37,592 nt of DNA, from contig JAGCVL010000004.1 of the NCBI GenBank assembly GCA_017962365.1, forward strand, positions 1-37,592, in the 5' to 3' direction. Made by a program: the position numbers and the translations under genes. Of this stretch, positions 710 through 33,043 are shown in pieces (the first letter of the stretch is position 1; the number at the start of each line of letters is the position of its first letter). Source of the stretch: Candidatus Saccharimonadota bacterium (GTDB lineage: Bacteria; Patescibacteriota; Saccharimonadia; Saccharimonadales; Saccharimonadaceae). The notes beneath the pieces are model-generated. The model worked only from the letters and a program-made list of their open reading frames with translations, searched no databases and was not told where the DNA came from.

Positions 710-1855
710 TTAGTCGGCAATTATTCCGCCGCCAAGACAAATTTCGCCATCATATAGCACCGCAGACTGCCCCGCCGCCGGCCTTTTTACTTCGTTTTCA
801 AAATATAGCGTTTCACCATCAAAAGTGGCCGGCACTAGTGGCGCGCGATGCCTGAGGCGAACCTGTACCTTCTCTGGCGCGTCGCTCCTTAAGAAGATAT
901 CTTTGAGGTGCAGCTCTTTTTTCCAAATCTCAGCGTGATTTAGATTTTTTGAGACATATACAATGTTTTTATTTAAATCTTTTTTCACGACATAATACGG
1001 CATGCCGTCATTTACCTCGCCCTTATTGCCAGAGATATACAGACCATGGCGCTGCCCAATCGTATAAAATATCGCACCCTCGTGATAACCCAAAACTTTC
1101 TCGGTCTCAATCTCACGAATCTCGCCCGGCTCCACCTCAATATATTCTTTGAGAAAATCTTTCATCCCGACTTCACCCACAAAACACACTCCCATGGATT
1201 CCTTTTTGTAGGCGTTATGTAGCCCCTTCTCCTTTGCCAATTTCTTCACATCCGGTTTCAACATATCGCCAATCGGAAAAAGCGTGTGAGATAAAGCCTC
1301 ATCCGAAATCCGATATAGAAAGTAGGTCTGATCTTTATTGCCATCAGTAGCTCTGAGGAGGACCGACTTATCATCCCACTCGGGGTCGCGTCGCTCGCTC
1401 CCGTCGCCACGGGGCTCGCGCGCTAAACCTCGCGCTGCCGCGCTCCGGAAATCCCCGAGTCGGGACGATAAGCCAGTCCTAGCGTAATGTCCTGTAGCGA
1501 TAAAGTCAGCCCCACTTTCTATCGCTTTTTCGAAGAAGAGCTTAAACTTGATTTCCTGATTGCACATCACGTCTGGGTTTGGCGTGTTGCCTTTCTTAAA
1601 CTCGGAAAGCATATATTCTACAACCTTTTCGCGGTAGGCGTCCTCAAAATCCCACACCTCAAACGGTATCCCAAGCTTCACCGCTACTCGCTTAGCATCG
1701 GCCAAATCCTCTGCCCATGGACATTTCATTCCCGGAAGGTCTCGTGACCAGTTTTTCATATACACACCGGTCACATCGTAGCCTTGCTCGACCAGCAAAG
1801 CTGCCGACATGCTAGAGTCCACTCCGCCGCTCATTCCCACAAAAACTTTAGGCAT
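710..1855 (-). CDS. mnmA: tRNA-specific 2-thiouridylase MnmA
   Basis: MnmA activates U34 of Lys, Glu and Gln tRNAs with ATP and inserts sulfur supplied by a cysteine desulfurase. Visible are the PP-loop SGGVDSS (residues 9-15), the first catalytic Cys in VMCNQEIKF (about 98), the TGHYAR motif, the NKDQTYFLYR stretch, and the second catalytic Cys in GVCFVGE. The C-terminal beta-barrel domain is present. Residues about 126-166 (RSAAARGLAREPRGDG and flanks), between GHYAR and VLLRATDGNKDQ, are not part of the family. They are encoded by a GC-rich palindromic element. Without it the protein has ordinary MnmA length. The start overlaps the end of iscS by 8 nt, so the two are co-transcribed and the desulfurase is the likely sulfur donor. 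Confidence 0.96.
   Translation of the reverse strand: MPKVFVGMSGGVDSSMSAALLVEQGYDVTGVYMKNWSRDLPGMKCPWAEDLADAKRVAVKLGIPFEVWDFEDAYREKVVEYMLSEFKKGNTPNPDVMCNQEIKFKLFFEKAIESGADFIATGHYARTGLSSRLGDFRSAAARGLAREPRGDGSERRDPEWDDKSVLLRATDGNKDQTYFLYRISDEALSHTLFPIGDMLKPDVKKLAKEKGLHNAYKKESMGVCFVGEVGMKDFLKEYIEVEPGEIREIETEKVLGYHEGAIFYTIGQRHGLYISGNKGEVNDGMPYYVVKKDLNKNIVYVSKNLNHAEIWKKELHLKDIFLRSDAPEKVQVRLRHRAPLVPATFDGETLYFENEVKRPAAGQSAVLYDGEICLGGGIIAD
1359..1480. repeat. GC-rich palindromic element, core type A, inside mnmA
   Basis: The arms are 1359-1385 and 1453-1480. They include CTTATCATCCC on the left and GGGACGATAAG on the right, then ACTCGGGG/CCCCGAGT. All three substitutions between the arms become G-U pairs in the mnmA mRNA, and there is one 1-nt bulge. 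On the coding strand the core contains CGGAGCGCGGCAGCGCGAG and the hairpin CCCGT-GGCG-ACGGG shared with other copies. The right arm encodes the family-like DDKSV, so the left arm looks like the inverted copy. Confidence 0.88.
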
Positions 1856-3089
1856 TTCTAAGCCTTTCTTTTTCTGAGGTTACGGCTTCGTTGATAAGTC
1901 TTGCAGCCTCGCGTATTTGCTCCTCGCTGTTGGTTTCGCCCATTGTAATCCTAAGCGACCCAGCAATTTCCGAGTCTGACAGCCCAATCGCGGCAAGAAC
2001 ATGTGATTTCTTACCCTTAGAAGCAGCGCAAGCCGCCCCAGTAGAAACATAAACTCCCTTTTCTTCTAGGAGATAAATTAACCTCTCTGCATCTATACCA
2101 TTATAGCACAAAACTACAAAATTGTCAAGCGTATGCTTTTTATTTACCAGCTCATATCCCTGTAACTCTGACAGCAAAATCTTCCGCCAAGTAGCGTATT
2201 TTTTACGATTTCCGTTTACATGCTCTTTTGCAAGCTCCATTGCTTTAGCAAAACCTACTACTCCGGGGACATTTTCGGTGCCAGACCGAAGACCATTTTC
2301 CTGCCCACCACCGAGCGTGAGGGGATTTAGCTTTACCTCGTGCGAAACATAAAGGGCCCCGACGCCTTTCGGACCATAAACTTTCGCGGCGTTCAGTGTC
2401 AAAAGGTCCACTCCGAGGCGCGCCACATTGATATCGATGAGGCTCGGCGCTTGCGAGGCGTCAGAATGTAGCAAAAGTTGGCGCTTCACTCCGCGTCGCA
2501 ACCTATCAAACTTAATCTCGCGAATCATACTAGTAATTTCGGCTAGTGGCTGGATGGTGCCAAGCTCGTTGTTGACGAGCGACACCGAAATCAGCTCCGT
2601 GTCGTCCGTAATTTTGTTTCGCAAATCGTCTAGGTCTATCACGCCGCTTTGGAGCACCTTGATCGGGACCCCACCATACCGCTCCGCCACCTTCCGTACC
2701 GAATCATGCTCGGTCTCAAGATATAAGACCAAATTCAGAAACGGTGCAACTCGAGGGTTTTCGGAGGTTACGACCGAGAATGAGGGCGCGAGCCCCGTGA
2801 CGACGGGCGCGAGCGACCCGTCCCGAGAGGGCACCGTTTTGAATTTGGTCACTATATTAAGCGCGAGGTTGTTCGCTTCGGTGGCGCCAGCGGTGATGAC
2901 GAGGTCGGACGCCTTGGCGCCAATCGCGTGCGCGATGGTTGCTTTTGCGGCTTCGTAATCTGCCGCCACTTTTTTAGCTGGTAAGTATGCCGCCGAAGGA
3001 TTAAAGAAATCATGCGAAAAATACGGCTCCATTGCCTCGAGCACCCTAGCATCCACTGGCGTCGCCGCCGCATGATCCAAATATATCAT
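1848..3089 (-). CDS. iscS: Cysteine desulfurase, IscS/NifS type
   Basis: A PLP enzyme that takes sulfur from cysteine as an enzyme persulfide, here most likely for MnmA. Visible: N-terminal IYLDHAAATP, the GATEANNLAL motif, ETEHDSV (cofactor-contacting His), the PLP lysine in NAAKVYGPKGVGALYV, and the catalytic Cys loop STGAACAAS followed by SHVL and SLRITMG. The residue before the PLP Lys is Ala, where IscS proteins usually have His. Residues about 80-121 (between NIVTKF and LVLYLETEH) come from an inserted palindromic element, which explains the length of 413. A leaderless-type -10 lies 7 nt before the ATG. It is the first gene of a two-gene operon with mnmA. Confidence 0.95.
   Translation of the reverse strand: MIYLDHAAATPVDARVLEAMEPYFSHDFFNPSAAYLPAKKVAADYEAAKATIAHAIGAKASDLVITAGATEANNLALNIVTKFKTVPSRDGSLAPVVTGLAPSFSVVTSENPRVAPFLNLVLYLETEHDSVRKVAERYGGVPIKVLQSGVIDLDDLRNKITDDTELISVSLVNNELGTIQPLAEITSMIREIKFDRLRRGVKRQLLLHSDASQAPSLIDINVARLGVDLLTLNAAKVYGPKGVGALYVSHEVKLNPLTLGGGQENGLRSGTENVPGVVGFAKAMELAKEHVNGNRKKYATWRKILLSELQGYELVNKKHTLDNFVVLCYNGIDAERLIYLLEEKGVYVSTGAACAASKGKKSHVLAAIGLSDSEIAGSLRITMGETNSEEQIREAARLINEAVTSEKERLRNA
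2727..2850. repeat. GC-rich palindromic element, core type A (reversed), inside iscS
   Basis: The arms are 2727-2747 and 2831-2850. GACCAAATTCA and AAACGGTGC on the left match TGAATTTGGTC and GCACCGTTT on the right, with a single 1-nt bulge. The core carries GCGCGAGCCCCGTGACGACG, as in mnmA, but turned round relative to the gene, so a completely different peptide is read (SLAPVVTGLAPSFSVV). Confidence 0.87.
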
Positions 3090-6435: not shown

Positions 6436-6623
6436 TTTTCTAGCTCCTCTGCGATGTTATTTAATTCCTCGTAGTATTTGAAATTGCTTTCAACCGGCTT
6501 AATATTTATTTCTCCGGTAACCACCTCATCAACTTTGACCGTCTCTGTCTTCTGGATGTCAAAATTATTTGCCGACGTTATCGGCAAGTTTGGTATCCTG
6601 AAGACGGTACAATCGTTCTGCAT
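6414..6623 (-). CDS. Small protein of unknown function between tatD and the 6046-6435 gene
   Basis: 69 residues if started at ATG 6623, which overlaps the end of tatD by 59 nt. A TTG at 6587, after an AGGA, would shorten it to 57 residues and reduce the overlap. The N-terminal half is polar; the C-terminus (NFKYYEELNNIAEELEKCRL) is a short amphipathic helix. Its stop overlaps the next gene by 22 nt. The two partners may act together (inference from overlap). No family is recognised. Confidence 0.55.
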   Translation of the reverse strand: MQNDCTVFRIPNLPITSANNFDIQKTETVKVDEVVTGEINIKPVESNFKYYEELNNIAEELEKCRLRML

Positions 6624-7425
6624 TTTTGGTGGTTTCTTTCTCTATAATTTCAAATTCTAGGCCAAGTTTTTGGCTTAACCACTGGGCAATCTCCTTGATA
6701 TACCCCGGTTCATTAATTATACCACGAAATGGCTCTGGAGTCAAGAAGGGAGCATCGGTTTCGAGCAAAATCCGCTCCAGCGGTGGGGTTGGCAAGGTAG
6801 AATACGTCGCAAGCCCATTGACACCCACATAAAAATCCGTTGCTTCTAGGATTTTACGTAAGTTCTTCTTGCTATCCGTAAACGAATGCACTACCCCACG
6901 TATCCCAGGGAAATTTGCCACCACCGGGAAAAAGTCATCAAATGCATTTCGTACATGAAACACTACCGGCAAATCGTTATCCTGCGCCAGCTGCAACATT
7001 TCCTCAAACAACCTAATCTGCCCCCCACGATCGTATCCATCATTATGATAATCCAGTCCCACCTCGCCGATAGCAACCGGCTGGCCGTTAGGACTAGAAT
7101 CCCGCTCGGGGGCGCGTCCGGCCGGCCCGTCGCCACGGGCGGCCGGCGCTAATACTCGCGCTGCCGCGCTCCGTACCCCCCTTCGCCAGGATTCTAGTCC
7201 TAAGCCGTGGTCACTTTCTTCGGGGTGGACTCCGTAGGTCCAATACACATCGTCGTGCGAGCTGGCAAAATCCCTTGCTGCCATCGAATCATCCGGGCCG
7301 GTCCCGATGCATACGATTTTTTGTACTCCCTTTTCCCTTGCTCGAGCCAGCATCTCTTCTGCCTGCTTTTCAGTAAAAAACTGTCGATCGTGCAAATGAC
7401 AGTGTGAATCAATCAAATATCCCAT
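6565..7425 (-). CDS. tatD: TatD-family metal-dependent DNase
   Basis: TatD enzymes are TIM-barrel hydrolases of the amidohydrolase superfamily with 3'-5' exonuclease activity. The metal and active-site residues are visible: DSHCHLHD (HxH), GEVGLDYH (bridging Glu), VFHVRN and VVHSF (His ligands), and LLETDAPFLTPE (catalytic Asp). Residues about 75-113 between GVHPEES and PVAIGEVGLDYH are foreign and are encoded by a GC-rich palindromic element (GVRSAAARVLAPAARGDGPA). The insertion lies in a surface loop just before the catalytic Glu strand. The total of 286 residues equals a usual TatD plus the insert. A leaderless -10 lies 6 nt before the ATG. It heads a small operon with two unknown genes. 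Confidence 0.95.
   Translation of the reverse strand: MGYLIDSHCHLHDRQFFTEKQAEEMLARAREKGVQKIVCIGTGPDDSMAARDFASSHDDVYWTYGVHPEESDHGLGLESWRRGVRSAAARVLAPAARGDGPAGRAPERDSSPNGQPVAIGEVGLDYHNDGYDRGGQIRLFEEMLQLAQDNDLPVVFHVRNAFDDFFPVVANFPGIRGVVHSFTDSKKNLRKILEATDFYVGVNGLATYSTLPTPPLERILLETDAPFLTPEPFRGIINEPGYIKEIAQWLSQKLGLEFEIIEKETTKNAERLYRLQDTKLADNVGK
7088..7203. repeat. GC-rich palindromic element, core type A, inside tatD
   Basis: Perfect 15-bp arms: TTAGGACTAGAATCC (7088-7102) and GGATTCTAGTCCTAA (7189-7203). The 86-nt core is about 80% G+C by my count. From GAATC to GATTC (98 nt) it differs from the dnaX copy at about five positions. The core folds again as a GGCCG-rich stem around CCCGT-GGCG-ACGGG on the coding strand. 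Confidence 0.92.
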
Positions 7426-7431
7426 TTTTTA

Positions 7432-7437
7432 ATTATA
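7432..7437 (-). promoter_or_regulatory. Extended -10 of tatD (leaderless type)
   Basis: TGGTATAAT on the minus strand, 6 nt before the ATG. Confidence 0.7.
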
Positions 7438-7472
7438 CCACATCCCTTATGGACAAAATTCGCTTTTTGTGA

Positions 7473-7478
7473 TAAAAT
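7473..7478 (+). promoter_or_regulatory. Promoter of typA (leaderless type)
   Basis: The extended -10 TGATAAAAT ends 7 nt before the ATG. TGGACA at 7450-7455 is a good -35 at 17-bp spacing. Confidence 0.72.
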
Positions 7479-7485
7479 ATCTCTC

Positions 7486-9309
7486 ATGATTTCAAATAAG
7501 GACTTAATTCGCAACGTTGCGATTATTGCTCACGTCGACCACGGCAAGACTACCCTTGTGGATGGTCTTTTGAAGCAATCGCATACTTTTCGTGACAACC
7601 AAGCTGAGATGCAGCAGACTTTAATCATGGACTCCATGGATCAGGAGCACGAGCGCGGTATCACAATCACAGCAAAACAAACCTGTGTTTATTACAACGG
7701 GTACAAGATTAATATTATCGACACTCCAGGCCACGCCGATTTTTCTGGCGAAGTTGAACGTACACTCAACATGGCGGACGGGGTGCTTTTGGTTGTTGAC
7801 GCCCAAGAAGGTCCGATGCCTCAGACTAAATTCGTTTTGCAAAAAGCCCTAGATTTGAAGCTAAAACCAGTTGTTATTATCAATAAAATCGATAAGCCGG
7901 CTGCTCGCATCGACGAAGTTATCGGCGAAATCGAGAGCCTTTTCCTCGAGCTTGCCACTGACGAATCGCAATTAAACTATCCGATTTACTATGCAATTGC
8001 CCGCGAAGGCCGTGCCGGTAAGACCACCGACCTTGATAATGATTTGCATGTCATCTTTGATGCGATTATCAATGATATTCCAGCCCCAGAAGCCGACCCG
8101 AGTGCCGAGTCCGCGCAACTTCTCGTGGCGGCACTCTCGAGCGACAATTACCTAGGCAAATATTGTATCGGTAAAATCTTCCGCGGCAAGTTAAAGAAGG
8201 GTCAAACTGTCTCAATTTTGCATAATAGCGTCGTACTGCGTGGTAAAATTGAGAATTTGTTCATCTATAAAGGCCTCGGCAAAGAAGAGGTTACCGAAGC
8301 TATTGCCGGTGATATCGTGGCTATCGCTGGAGTTGCTGAGGCCAACATCGGCGATACTATCGCTACGGGCGATAATCCTGAAGCACTCCCGACCATCGAG
8401 CTCGAGCCGCCCACGCTTTCTATTTACATCGGCCCAAACACTTCCCCGCTCAAAGGCAAAGAGGGCGAGTTTACTACTTCACGCCAGATTGCTGAGCGTT
8501 TGGAGCGTGAGCTTGAGACCAATATTGCTCTTAAAATTGAGCCAGACGGTCTTGGTTATAAAGTTTCTGGCCGTGGTGAATTGCATCTCTCTGTACTTAT
8601 CGAGACCATGCGCCGCGAAGGTTATGAGCTAGAAGCTGGCCGCCCAGAGGTGGTTTACCGCGAAATTGATGGTGTTAAATGTGAACCAATCGAGTCGCTT
8701 ACTATCGAGGCTTCTCCGGAATTTGTCGGTGCAGTCTCCGCTGAGCTTGGCATCAGAAAAGCCGAACTAAAATCTCAGGAGCTTACCACCAACGGCTCCA
8801 CTCGCTTTGTTTATGAAATTTCTACTGCCGCGTTAATCGGGCTTCGCAATACTTTGTTAACCGCAACCAAAGGTACCGTCATTATGTCGAGCCTACCTTC
8901 CGGCTATCGCCCGGTCGAGGGACGTTATCGCCCAGAGCGCAACGGCGCACTCGTATCTTTCGAAAGTGGTGTTTCGACCGCCTATGCCCTTGATGCCGCT
9001 CAGGCCCGTGGGGTTCTTTACATCCCACCTCAGGTACCAGTCTATCAGGGCATGATTGTGGGTTTGTCAAACAAGAAAGACGACCTAGACATCAACGTTT
9101 GCCGCGAAAAGCAGCTTACTAATATGCGTACGCACGCCTCAGACGGTGCTATTCAGCTTACCCCATACACTCAGCTCTCACTTGAGCAGTGTTTGGACTT
9201 CCTCCTAGATGATGAACTTCTAGAGGTGACGCCGAAGTCTCTCCGTCTTCGCAAGCGCCAGCTCGATCCTATCAAGCGAAAACGCGAAAATCGTATTTAC
9301 AACGATTAA
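7486..9309 (+). CDS. typA: Ribosome-associated GTPase TypA/BipA
   Basis: A translational GTPase of the EF-G group that binds the ribosome and helps 50S assembly and stress or cold responses. Seen: the P-loop AHVDHGKTT, switch I region [18 protein letters not shown] (G3), NKIDKP (G4), followed by the beta-barrel domain, EF-G-like domains III and V ([18 protein letters not shown]), and the TypA-specific C-terminal domain ([19 protein letters not shown]). 607 residues is normal. No inserted element is present. It is a single-gene unit with a leaderless-type promoter and a hairpin terminator. Confidence 0.97.
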
Positions 9310-20663: not shown

Positions 20664-22975
<2,312 letters not shown>

Positions 22976-29684: not shown

Positions 29685-29772
29685 AAGAATAACTAAAAAT
29701 ATACTTTTTGGGACCGTAAGCTTGGGCGAGCGCCCTTGAGCGTGTCCCGAAAAGTATATTTTAGTTATTCTT
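29685..29772. repeat. GC-rich palindromic element, core type B, spanning the end of dnaB
   Basis: The arms are 29685-29714 and 29744-29772. AAGAATAACTAAAA and TATACTTTT on the left match AAAAGTATA and TTTTAGTTATTCTT on the right, with one bulge and one mismatch. The right arm contains the dnaB stop and last codons, so the left arm is the inverted copy. The core CTTGGGCGAGCGCC is shared with queA. The hairpin may also end dnaB transcription. Confidence 0.85.
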
Positions 29773-31132
29773 CCCTAGTTTTATCGAGCGACATAAAACG
29801 TAGTAATTCTGGGTGGAAGTAAAGCTCAATTTTGCCGACCGCCCCATGGCGGTGCTTTGCAACCAAAAGTTCCGTAATGTGCGTCTCTTCGTAATTGTCA
29901 TCATTTTGTCGGTAATAGTCTGGGCGGTGCAAAAACATCACAAGGTCGGCGTCCTGCTCGATTGACCCGGATTCGCGAAGGTCGGATAGCACTGGTCTAG
30001 GATCGTCTCGCCCGGTCACCGAACGTGAAAGCTGCGCCAAAGCCACCACAGGAATCTCAAGCTCACGTGCCAAAATTTTAAGACCACGCGAAATCTCCGT
30101 CACTTCCTGCACACGATTCCCTTTATAACGATCGGAACCCTGAATAAGCTGCAAGTAGTCCACGATTACAATCCCAATATCCTTGTCATGCATTGCGCGC
30201 CTTGCTTTATTGCGCAAATCCATAATTGTCATTGAACTCGTATCGTCAATATAAATCGGCAATTCATCCATCTCTCCGAGCGCCTCGCCAATCCGCTGAA
30301 ATTCATCATCCGTCAGATTGCCGGTCCGCATCTTCCAGTTATCAACGCCAGACACATCCGAAATCATCCGGTCCACAATTTCGTTCGCCGCCATCTCCAT
30401 CGAGAAAAACAATACGCCTTTTTTATTCATGCTCGCAATGTTGTATGTTAAGTTCTGTGCGAAAGTGGTCTTACCCATTGCTGGGCGAGCACCGATGATG
30501 ATGAGATCGCCTTTTTGAAAACCAGCAGTTTTTTTATCTAGGTCACGAAAGCCAGTTTTGAGCCCACGCAGTGCGCCTTTGTTTTTGTGTAGTTCCTCAA
30601 TCCTATCAAATGCGTCTGCGAGTAATTCGTCCATCGCGACATAATCACTCTTAACTACCTTGTCGGATACATCAAATAATTCTTTTTCGGCCGAACCAAT
30701 TAGGCTTTGCACATCCGCATCGTCCTCAAACGCTTTATTGGCGATTTCATTGCCAGCTTTGATTAGCCGCCGTCTAGTAGATGCTTTCTCGATAATCTCC
30801 GCATAGGCCTTCGCATGTGTTGCGGCTGGTACAAAATTTGATAGTTCAGTAAGATATGGAGCGCCGCCAATATCCTTTAGCTGCTTTTTAGTTCTAAGTT
30901 CAGTCGTCACGGTCAACAAATCTACTGGCTTATGCTGGTCGTATAGATTCATCATCGCCTCAAAAATCATTTGATGGCGCTCTTCATAAAAGTCTCGCGG
31001 CTTCAAAATCGTCAATATTTCCGGCAATGCGCCGTCAGAAATCAAAATAGCACCGAGCAAAGATTTCTCAGCTTCTATATCCTGCGGTGGTACACGACCA
31101 CCTGATTTAGAATGGGTTGCCTCCTCCGTCAT
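29765..31132 (-). CDS. dnaB: Replicative DNA helicase DnaB
   Basis: 455 residues. N-terminal helical domain (VPPQDIEAEKSLLGAILISD) and RecA-like C-terminal domain: Walker A GARPAMGKTTFAQN, Walker B IVIVDYLQLIQGS, LSRSVTGRDDPRPVLSDLRESGSIEQDADLVMFLHR, and VAKHRHG (arginine-finger region). No intein or insert. I start at ATG 31132, with GGAGAGG just upstream; GTG 31147 is an alternative. It overlaps the end of dnaX by 26 nt and is the last gene of a replication operon. Confidence 0.97.
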   Translation of the reverse strand: MTEEATHSKSGGRVPPQDIEAEKSLLGAILISDGALPEILTILKPRDFYEERHQMIFEAMMNLYDQHKPVDLLTVTTELRTKKQLKDIGGAPYLTELSNFVPAATHAKAYAEIIEKASTRRRLIKAGNEIANKAFEDDADVQSLIGSAEKELFDVSDKVVKSDYVAMDELLADAFDRIEELHKNKGALRGLKTGFRDLDKKTAGFQKGDLIIIGARPAMGKTTFAQNLTYNIASMNKKGVLFFSMEMAANEIVDRMISDVSGVDNWKMRTGNLTDDEFQRIGEALGEMDELPIYIDDTSSMTIMDLRNKARRAMHDKDIGIVIVDYLQLIQGSDRYKGNRVQEVTEISRGLKILARELEIPVVALAQLSRSVTGRDDPRPVLSDLRESGSIEQDADLVMFLHRPDYYRQNDDNYEETHITELLVAKHRHGAVGKIELYFHPELLRFMSLDKTREE

Positions 31133-32525
31133 TTTGTACCTCTCCACCCATTATACCAGAAATCTTAGAAATTAATTCGTCTTTCTTTGCGTTTGGATTT
31201 TCTCCAGCGTCTAAAATTTTTACTTCAAGTCCATTTGCTGCATCGATTAAAATCTTTTTGTTGTTTGCGCGTGACAAAATTGTCTTCGCGATTTTTTTCT
31301 CTGGATAAATTTCCAAAGTACTGCCGCTTACGTTATGCCCAGCCTTCGCCACTTGCGAATAAACTGCATCGTTCATACCCTTCACCTTCTCCAAAAACCC
31401 ATTCCAGTCAAACTTGCCATGTGTGATATTGGCGGGCGACCTTTCAACTTCTTCTGTCGATGCGTCATTTTGGTCTTGTGATGGGGTCCTGACACTTGAA
31501 TCCCGCTCGGGAGCGCGTCCGGCCGGCCCGTCGCCACGGGCGGCCGGCGCTAATACTCGCGCTGCCGCGCTCCGTACCTCCCTTCGCTGCGATTCAAGCG
31601 TCACCCCATCACACAAGGCGACGAGCAACCTCGCTTCTGCAAAAGGTGCTTTCACGTCTGGTAATCTTGCAAGTAACGGCAGAGTTATTGGCTCTGGGTT
31701 ATCAATAATCGTCGTAATCAATTCTTCTGCAATTGTTTCTGCTTTAATACCAGAAGATAACAATTCTTTCAAAGATGTTGTAATTTTTACAACATCACCG
31801 GATAAATAATTAGTAATTAGTTCGGCGATTTTTTCGTCTTCTGGTAGGCCGATAGCTTTTTCTACTAATTCTTTCGTGATTTCTTCATCTGAAAGCGTAG
31901 AAATCTGGTCAAGTAGACTTAGCGAGTCCCGAAATGATCCGCCACCACGTTTCACTACAAGCTTCAAAGCTTCATCGGAAATTTTGATTTTCTCTTTTTG
32001 GCATACTGATTTTAGAAAATCAAACATTGTCTGCCGACTAGCTAATTGAAAAGTGTAAGTCTGAGCTCTGGAAGTAATTGTAACCGGTACTTTATAGGCA
32101 TCGGTCGTAGCCATAATGAAAATCACATGCTCCGGCGGCTCTTCCAAAGTTTTGAGCAAAGCATTGAATGCTTCTTTTGTCAGCATATGTACTTCGTCGA
32201 TAATGTAGACTTTGTACTTTCCCATCGTCGGCGCGATAGCCGCTTTTTCGCGAAGCTCCCGTATATTATCAATGCCACGATTACTGGCACCATCAATTTC
32301 GATAATGTCGACATAATCATCTTCTACTTCATAAGAAAACCCGTTCACCTCGTGCGCTAAAATTCTTGCCACACTCGTCTTGCCACAACCTCTCGGGCCC
32401 ACAAAAAGATACGCATGGGACACTTTGCCAGCTTTCAAAGCCGCCATTAGCGGCTTCGTCACTTGCGGTTGGCCAATCACCTCACCAAGACTTAGTGGTC
32501 GCTCTCGTCGATATAAATTTTTCAT
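31107..32525 (-). CDS. dnaX: DNA polymerase III clamp-loader subunit DnaX (tau/gamma), zinc module missing
   Basis: 472 residues. Clamp-loader ATPase: YRRERPLSLGEVIGQ, P-loop VGPRGCGKTSVA, EIDGASNRGIDNIRELREK, IDEVHMLTKEAFNALLKTLEEPPEHVIFI, sensor 1 TTDAYKVPVTITSRA. DnaX normally has a Cys-rich zinc module between the P-loop helix and EIDAAS; here it is replaced by EVNGFSYEVEDDYVDI with no Cys. Residues about 305-350, in the linker after domain III, are an inserted palindromic element. The ATG overlaps the upstream gene's stop (TAATG). Confidence 0.95.
   Translation of the reverse strand: MKNLYRRERPLSLGEVIGQPQVTKPLMAALKAGKVSHAYLFVGPRGCGKTSVARILAHEVNGFSYEVEDDYVDIIEIDGASNRGIDNIRELREKAAIAPTMGKYKVYIIDEVHMLTKEAFNALLKTLEEPPEHVIFIMATTDAYKVPVTITSRAQTYTFQLASRQTMFDFLKSVCQKEKIKISDEALKLVVKRGGGSFRDSLSLLDQISTLSDEEITKELVEKAIGLPEDEKIAELITNYLSGDVVKITTSLKELLSSGIKAETIAEELITTIIDNPEPITLPLLARLPDVKAPFAEARLLVALCDGVTLESQRREVRSAAARVLAPAARGDGPAGRAPERDSSVRTPSQDQNDASTEEVERSPANITHGKFDWNGFLEKVKGMNDAVYSQVAKAGHNVSGSTLEIYPEKKIAKTILSRANNKKILIDAANGLEVKILDAGENPNAKKDELISKISGIMGGEVQNDGGGNPF
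31477..31613. repeat. GC-rich palindromic element, core type A, inside dnaX
   Basis: The arms are 31477-31502 and 31591-31613. TGTGATGGGGT pairs with ACCCCATCACA, and TGACACTTGAATC with GATTCAAGCGTCA (one G-U in the mRNA). A CCT (AGG in the mRNA) is extra in one arm. The core is almost the same as in tatD and encodes the same peptide (RSAAARVLAPAARGDGPAGR). Confidence 0.92.
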
Positions 32526-33043
32526 TACAGTGCCGCTTCTACTGCTGCCCAAGTCGCATCTTCATTGTTTGCTGGGATTGTAACCGACACTTGTGAACCA
32601 GTCCGAAGTCTAAAATATGTCACCGATGCATATAAAATCTGATATTCACGACCACCAACTTCTACGAAATACTTATCGTCGTGATGTGTCAAAGTGCCAA
32701 TCACGGTCTTGCGCTCGACTGGACCGATCTGCTTATACAAGAATTTTCCATCTTCTGAAATCGTAAGTTTCAAAATATCGCCTTCGACCAACTTTGACTT
32801 TGAAGCATAGTTTGCCGGTACTGGATAATTCTTACCGTCTGGACCAATCATGATTTGGCCATCAAAAATACCCTCAATGACTTTGCCCTCAGGGCCAGAC
32901 ATAATAGTCTCGCTAGGAGCAGTAATGACTTCACCGTCACCAAGTATCGAAATCAAAAGTTCTTTCGCCGCTGCGAGATTTGTCTCAGCGTCGCTAATTA
33001 GCCCCCTAAGTCTTTTTATTTGTTTTTCTGGTATTTCAGACAT
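32525..33043 (-). CDS. Conserved protein of unknown function upstream of dnaX (coiled coil plus beta domain)
   Basis: 172 residues. The N-terminal helix (EKQIKRLRGLISDAETNLAA) is a likely coiled coil. Residues about 45-172 are beta-rich, with conserved-looking turns: GKVIEGIFDGQIMIGPDGK, PVPANYASKSKLVEGD, LYKQIGPVERK, and ASVTYFRLRTGSQVSVTIP. The second half could be an OB-like barrel (inference). I have the impression of related proteins in many CPR genomes but cannot search. It is the first gene of the dnaX-dnaB operon and ends in a TAATG overlap with dnaX. ATG 33043 follows AGGATGCGAGG. Confidence 0.75.
   Translation of the reverse strand: MSEIPEKQIKRLRGLISDAETNLAAAKELLISILGDGEVITAPSETIMSGPEGKVIEGIFDGQIMIGPDGKNYPVPANYASKSKLVEGDILKLTISEDGKFLYKQIGPVERKTVIGTLTHHDDKYFVEVGGREYQILYASVTYFRLRTGSQVSVTIPANNEDATWAAVEAAL

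Follow-up and report, generated by a model that had tools for sequence, protein, structure and literature searches.

A genus-specific repeat of Saccharibacteria carried between locus-specific inverted arms

Rickettsia palindromic elements (RPE) are repeats of about 100–150 nt. They are palindromes that lie in frame within unrelated genes and are translated (PMC10969869), and they are said to lose arm identity over time (PMC6649704). The genes of Nematomorpha mitochondria contain long, perfect inverted repeats with dynamic gain and loss, and arm conversion has been proposed for these coding palindromes (PMC6649704). Template-switch (quasipalindrome) mutation extends short inverted repeats into perfect ones (PMC8604942, PMC8794818). 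It also creates and maintains perfect stems (PMC8794818) and, in yeast, homogenises inverted-repeat arms and inverts spacers in coding DNA (PMC8604942). Here we analyse a palindromic repeat of Saccharibacteria; a limited literature search found no description of such a repeat in this group.

The window, the whole 37,592-nucleotide stretch analysed, is one (C6) of the six contigs of a 625-kb genome (G000). The nearest named relatives of G000 are Candidatus Nanosyncoccus alces and Saccharibacteria MAGs from rumen and gut, and the Saccharibacteria genome to which the window belongs is Nanosyncoccus-like. BLAST placed the repeat, R1, at 12 places in G000, and a covariance model of 28 pairs, 16 of them changed on both sides (covariation), found 17 clear copies. 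The model matched all 24 sampled genomes of the genus and 0 of 16 genomes from other families of the order. R1 is a short, non-autonomous palindromic repeat specific to one genus of these tiny parasitic bacteria. Two candidates for its spread were rejected. The sole IMG/VR pattern match (L225:8831–8858) fell in a phage virion-type gene without a second hairpin and is a chance match, which leaves viral spread without support. An IS200/RAYT helper was dropped as PF01797, with positive controls, was found in 1 of 40 genus genomes, and not in G000.

The copy in tatD (gene at 6565–7425, minus strand) spans 7088–7203, where no Rfam family matches, and comprises 15-nt arms around an 86-nt inner part. 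Its left arm (TTAGGACTAGAATCC; 7088–7102) is complementary at 15 of 15 positions to its right arm (GGATTCTAGTCCTAA; 7189–7203), neither being assigned a strand, which confirms the locus-specific, near-complementary arms of the initial annotation. Between them lies a conserved structured core (7103–7187, minus strand) that matches R1 at 92.6 bits (E = 2.3e-20) and shows covariation. R1 cores are about 81–88 nt long (about 85 nt in tatD) and consist of two hairpins, one of 4 bp and one long, on a closing stem, from which the locus-specific arms run outward. The tatD frame is open across the element, which lengthens the loop that joins VHPEE to VAIGEVGLDY by about 38 residues. At 6565–9309, tatD stands divergent beside typA; in most relatives it is downstream of typA on the same strand.

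Four more genes in the window carry a copy. In mnmA (gene 710–1855) the copy lies at 1359–1480 on the minus strand, with R1 at 1377–1461 and arms at 1359–1385 and 1453–1480 that take in the closing stem of the core; empty alleles of mnmA occur in G001, G002 and G007. The iscS copy (2727–2850, plus strand; gene 1848–3089) is oriented opposite to its gene and has arms at 2727–2747 and 2831–2850 around R1 at 2749–2830. In tgt (gene 21734–22975) the copy spans 22279–22398 on the plus strand (arms 22279–22300 and 22378–22398; R1 22297–22381). Empty tgt alleles are known in the genus and they do not contain EEKVFGQI, which had been taken for a host motif. The dnaX copy (about 31478–31612, minus strand; gene 31107–32552) has arms at about 31478–31502 and about 31591–31612 around R1 at 31504–31588. 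A further copy had been annotated at dnaB, with 28 of 30 arm positions paired. The hairpin there is real (29685–29772, minus strand; a 29-nt centre and arms of about 30 nt), but the R1 core is absent, the nearest core copy being the one further on in dnaX. It begins in the final dnaB codons, one arm holds the dnaB stop codon, and it looks like a terminator. The window also contains a ribosomal protein L10 leader (RF00557; 36364–36508, minus strand).

Pairing between the two arms of a copy holds across the genus. The own-arm score beyond the core had a median of 15 and was at least 8 in 109 of 113 unique genus copies, compared with a median of 4, and a score of at least 8 in 48 of 1,130 cases, for a null of mispaired flanks. 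The same was true of single sites compared between genomes: own arms had a median of 14 in tatD and 15 in truB, against 4 and 7 for cross-genome pairs. The statement that every copy has near-perfect arms is therefore too strong by the remaining four, and older copies carry arm mismatches. A strict scan of loci for perfect repeats overlooked arms with bulges and so returned few elements. Arms were also said to be unrelated between loci, and the mispaired null agrees that they fit their own partner, with two exceptions. In G016 (L276), two tsaD copies within one gene have the core and both arms in common, so that arms can travel with the core. In the tatD loops of L418 and L423 the element and its arms differ at one position and some flank is near-identical too, although the neighbouring tatD is about 85% identical, which suggests a recent exchange of the element between species.

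All clear copies of G000 lie within genes of housekeeping type, and the frames of these genes stay open. Judged by eye from translations, further hosts in this genome are look-alikes of der, tsaD (two copies), leuS, pheT, truB, recX, an rlmD-like gene, a methyltransferase gene, dus, valS, argS and gatA. In the genus as a whole, long open reading frames (ORFs; 180 codons or more) contain 96 of the 113 unique copies, which occur in every phase and face either way. A given frame across the core plus 25 nt is open in just 19–57% of copies; the prevalence of copies in long ORFs therefore indicates that translation, rather than splicing or bypass, is under selection. The open frames are indirect evidence that in-gene copies are probably translated as extra protein loops, and the inserted hairpins would then remodel loops of essential proteins again and again in this genus. 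Several copies outside ORFs lie between genes, downstream of stop codons, and finish with terminator-like T runs (S1, S3, S5 and S6). An RNA-level element with fixed orientation was ruled out, as copies lie both ways in genes.

One arm architecture accompanies several kinds of core. Among tatD alleles, of which 31 of 85 were scored as hairpin carriers with arms of 15–55 nt, R1 and at least two unrelated core types occur between such arms, and other core types with the same architecture were seen in L065, L418, pheT of G023 and tsaD of G007. A second type (GAACCGTCCC..GGGACGAACC) is present in L065, L418, L423, L175 and L178, and further types in L278 and L385 (EHKDLARAARSVSEGHAA) and in G165 (L442 and L443). 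Hairpins with little or no core bear the same arms in the tatD alleles L067, L407 and L409, in tsaD of G018 and at dnaB. The L385 tatD loop holds two different hairpin elements in tandem and is 105 residues long. At one mnmA site the core type differs between G165 and G164, which shows turnover rather than which arm is native.

Cores also invert in place. Between G148 and G084, which are 92–95% identical, the core and inner arms are inverted at site S1, and at site S2 the inverted match is 108/126 against 66/126 for the direct match. Inversion at orthologous sites implies that arm-to-arm template switching acts on established copies, and such switching could make arms after insertion. A polarity rule, in which the native arm is always on one side of the core, was dropped as the core inverts between sister species. 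The initial annotation had proposed insertion by fold-back or template switching; the inversions bear out template switching on established copies, and a fold-back step at insertion stays hypothetical.

The reading that we favour, at about even chances of being correct, is that the core inserts and the arms are made or re-made by template switching between the flanks. The core would enter intergenic DNA or the loop-encoding parts of genes, facing either way, and within genes only in-frame copies would survive, to be translated as extra loops. A replicating strand would fold back or switch strand at the core, copying one flank into the other before a short inverted match let it rejoin its template; the resulting locus-specific arms would lengthen the closing stem of the core, and the same process would flip the core between the arms. 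We infer that template switching rather than the insertion step made the arms, and that the source flank was host sequence. Both arm homogenisation relative to alleles that lack it and spacer inversion at orthologous sites were found, and both count for template switching. Four observations count against it: the extra arm at seven pooled sites, described below, is explained no worse by insertion of a core together with an inverted arm; some orthologous copies (L372 against L376 and L377) retain an uncorrected arm mismatch; a core of about 65–90 nt is a far longer spacer than was inverted in the yeast study (PMC8604942); and no insertion was seen beside a clearly identical host flank, as set out below.

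Comparison of empty and occupied alleles bears on when the arms arose. Of the 48 short tatD loops (70 nt) among the 85 alleles, 45 have no inverted repeat scoring at least 10, and empty alleles without a palindrome were also found at RlmD (G002, G004 and G005), tsaD site 3, mnmA and tgt. As empty alleles mostly lack a palindrome, the arms were not in general a pre-existing target. The closest in-gene occupied and empty pair read, G137 and G130 (roughly 80–93% identity), has core and arms in the G137 gene and neither in that of G130. The expectation had been that one arm would precede insertion and the other appear with the core. Arms are indeed absent from most empty alleles, but in this pair both arms differ from the empty allele and neither is clearly host. 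A close trio (G148, G084 and G068) differs by inversions and in intergenic regions and offers no clean in-gene gain. Among the alleles compared, no insertion event with clearly identical host flank was seen, and the alleles read, few of them close empty ones, contained no direct target-site duplication.

The lengths of these alleles give two different answers. Occupied tatD alleles have 77 nt of host sequence besides the core and empty ones have 70 nt; the arms add no length (P = 0.96), and one additional arm fits less well (P = 0.03). The net gain in occupied RlmD alleles is about that of the core alone. In both genes the arms have taken the place of host sequence. When seven other sites were pooled, occupied alleles had a median of 17 nt more host sequence beyond the core than empty alleles, and their arms scored 13.8 on average. 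The absence of an additional arm is rejected there (P = 0.0045), whereas the presence of exactly one is not (P = 0.67). The proposal that one arm is host and the other an added inverted duplicate thus agrees with the seven sites, and with the conserved host residues HPDEA inside one arm of the L067 and L398 tatD alleles, but not with tatD and RlmD as a whole. The 3′ arms in truB align with residues of empty alleles. By eye, the outer ends of both arms lie within conserved codons of the host in L421, L429, L433, L398 and RlmD, as if the copied strand had returned at inverted microhomology (a short inverted match).

The seven-site excess and the HPDEA arms are also what a one-step event would leave. 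In such an event the core would attach to a host strand that is nascent or nicked, fold back through its closing stem and act as primer for copying the neighbouring host strand, so that core and an inverted copy of one host flank enter together. We regard this as possible but clearly the less probable account. The outward extension of the arms from the closing stem speaks for it, whereas tatD arms add no length, RlmD gains little beyond the core, core-less hairpins bear such arms too, and there is no enzyme candidate, a Y1/HUH transposase being absent from 39 of 40 genus genomes. It is unlikely that the repeat is, in full, a mobile DNA hairpin templated on the adjacent host strand, with every insertion an inverted rather than a direct target duplication. 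If it were, the element would wear a host-made stem and would represent a novel mode of transposition that lacks fixed ends.

Selection on an RNA or DNA hairpin, acting as a terminator, as an attenuator or on mRNA stability, might instead keep the arms paired, with compensatory changes creating them. The intergenic copies after stop codons with T-run ends and the dnaB hairpin are consistent with this, as are the three mismatches in the mnmA arms, all of them G-T pairs by eye. Most copies, however, are inside ORFs, where a terminator would be harmful, and a stepwise route would hardly make arms of 15–55 nt that differ at one site between sister species. This explanation is improbable for the family, and such selection may act only on intergenic copies. 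Still less probable is insertion into the loop of a palindrome whose two arms were both old. A small number of short alleles form hairpins in their own right (L067, L407 and L409, and G018), and by eye a quasi-palindrome in G003 tsaD resembles the G000 arm; the hairpin-like short alleles, however, may equally be remnants after core loss, and the palindrome-free empty alleles of tatD, RlmD, tsaD site 3 and G130 largely exclude this reading. Finally, an RNA element with its ends held together by the arms, either cut out of the mRNA like an intron or bypassed by the ribosome, would suit hairpin inserts in essential genes and has a parallel in bypassed palindromic inserts of Magnusiomyces mitochondria (cited in PMC6649704), but is very improbable given the open frames of every G000 copy, the genus-wide location in long ORFs and the occurrence of both orientations, which goes against a fixed splicing RNA structure.

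Template switching between flanks, our preferred reading, places the repeat between several known systems. Like REP/RAYT elements and MITEs, it is short, high-copy, hairpin-forming and non-autonomous; it differs from them in being mostly intragenic and in its genus being nearly devoid of Y1 transposase, and the mispaired-flank null revealed no terminal inverted repeats common to copies. A DNA transposon with fixed terminal repeats is accordingly unsupported, as the initial annotation had maintained. Nematomorpha palindromes share the dynamic, long inverted repeats in genes but are mitochondrial, and the available sections of their description mention no conserved, mobile-like central core (PMC6649704). 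Template-switch mutation shares homogenised arms, spacer inversion and a setting in coding genes (PMC8604942, PMC8794818), whereas the spacers known from it are short and belong to no family of repeated cores, compared with a genus-wide spacer of about 85 nt here. In this genus, where empty, occupied and inverted alleles coexist, nature would have documented template switching in the coding DNA of a bacterium, and the question of whether inverted arms date from insertion or from later becomes open to test. The closest likeness is to RPE, with which the repeat shares in-frame insertion in unrelated protein genes. It occurs in another phylum, in a Saccharibacteria genus (the genomes searched were of this genus and of other families of its order), and its arms are site-specific and complementary and its intergenic copies terminator-like. 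We describe it as resembling RPE, on likeness of architecture, rather than file it among them. In its anatomy it behaves as a translated palindrome of the RPE type, with a stem that template switching has probably lengthened with host sequence, and RPE-like translated palindromes would then not be confined to Rickettsia.
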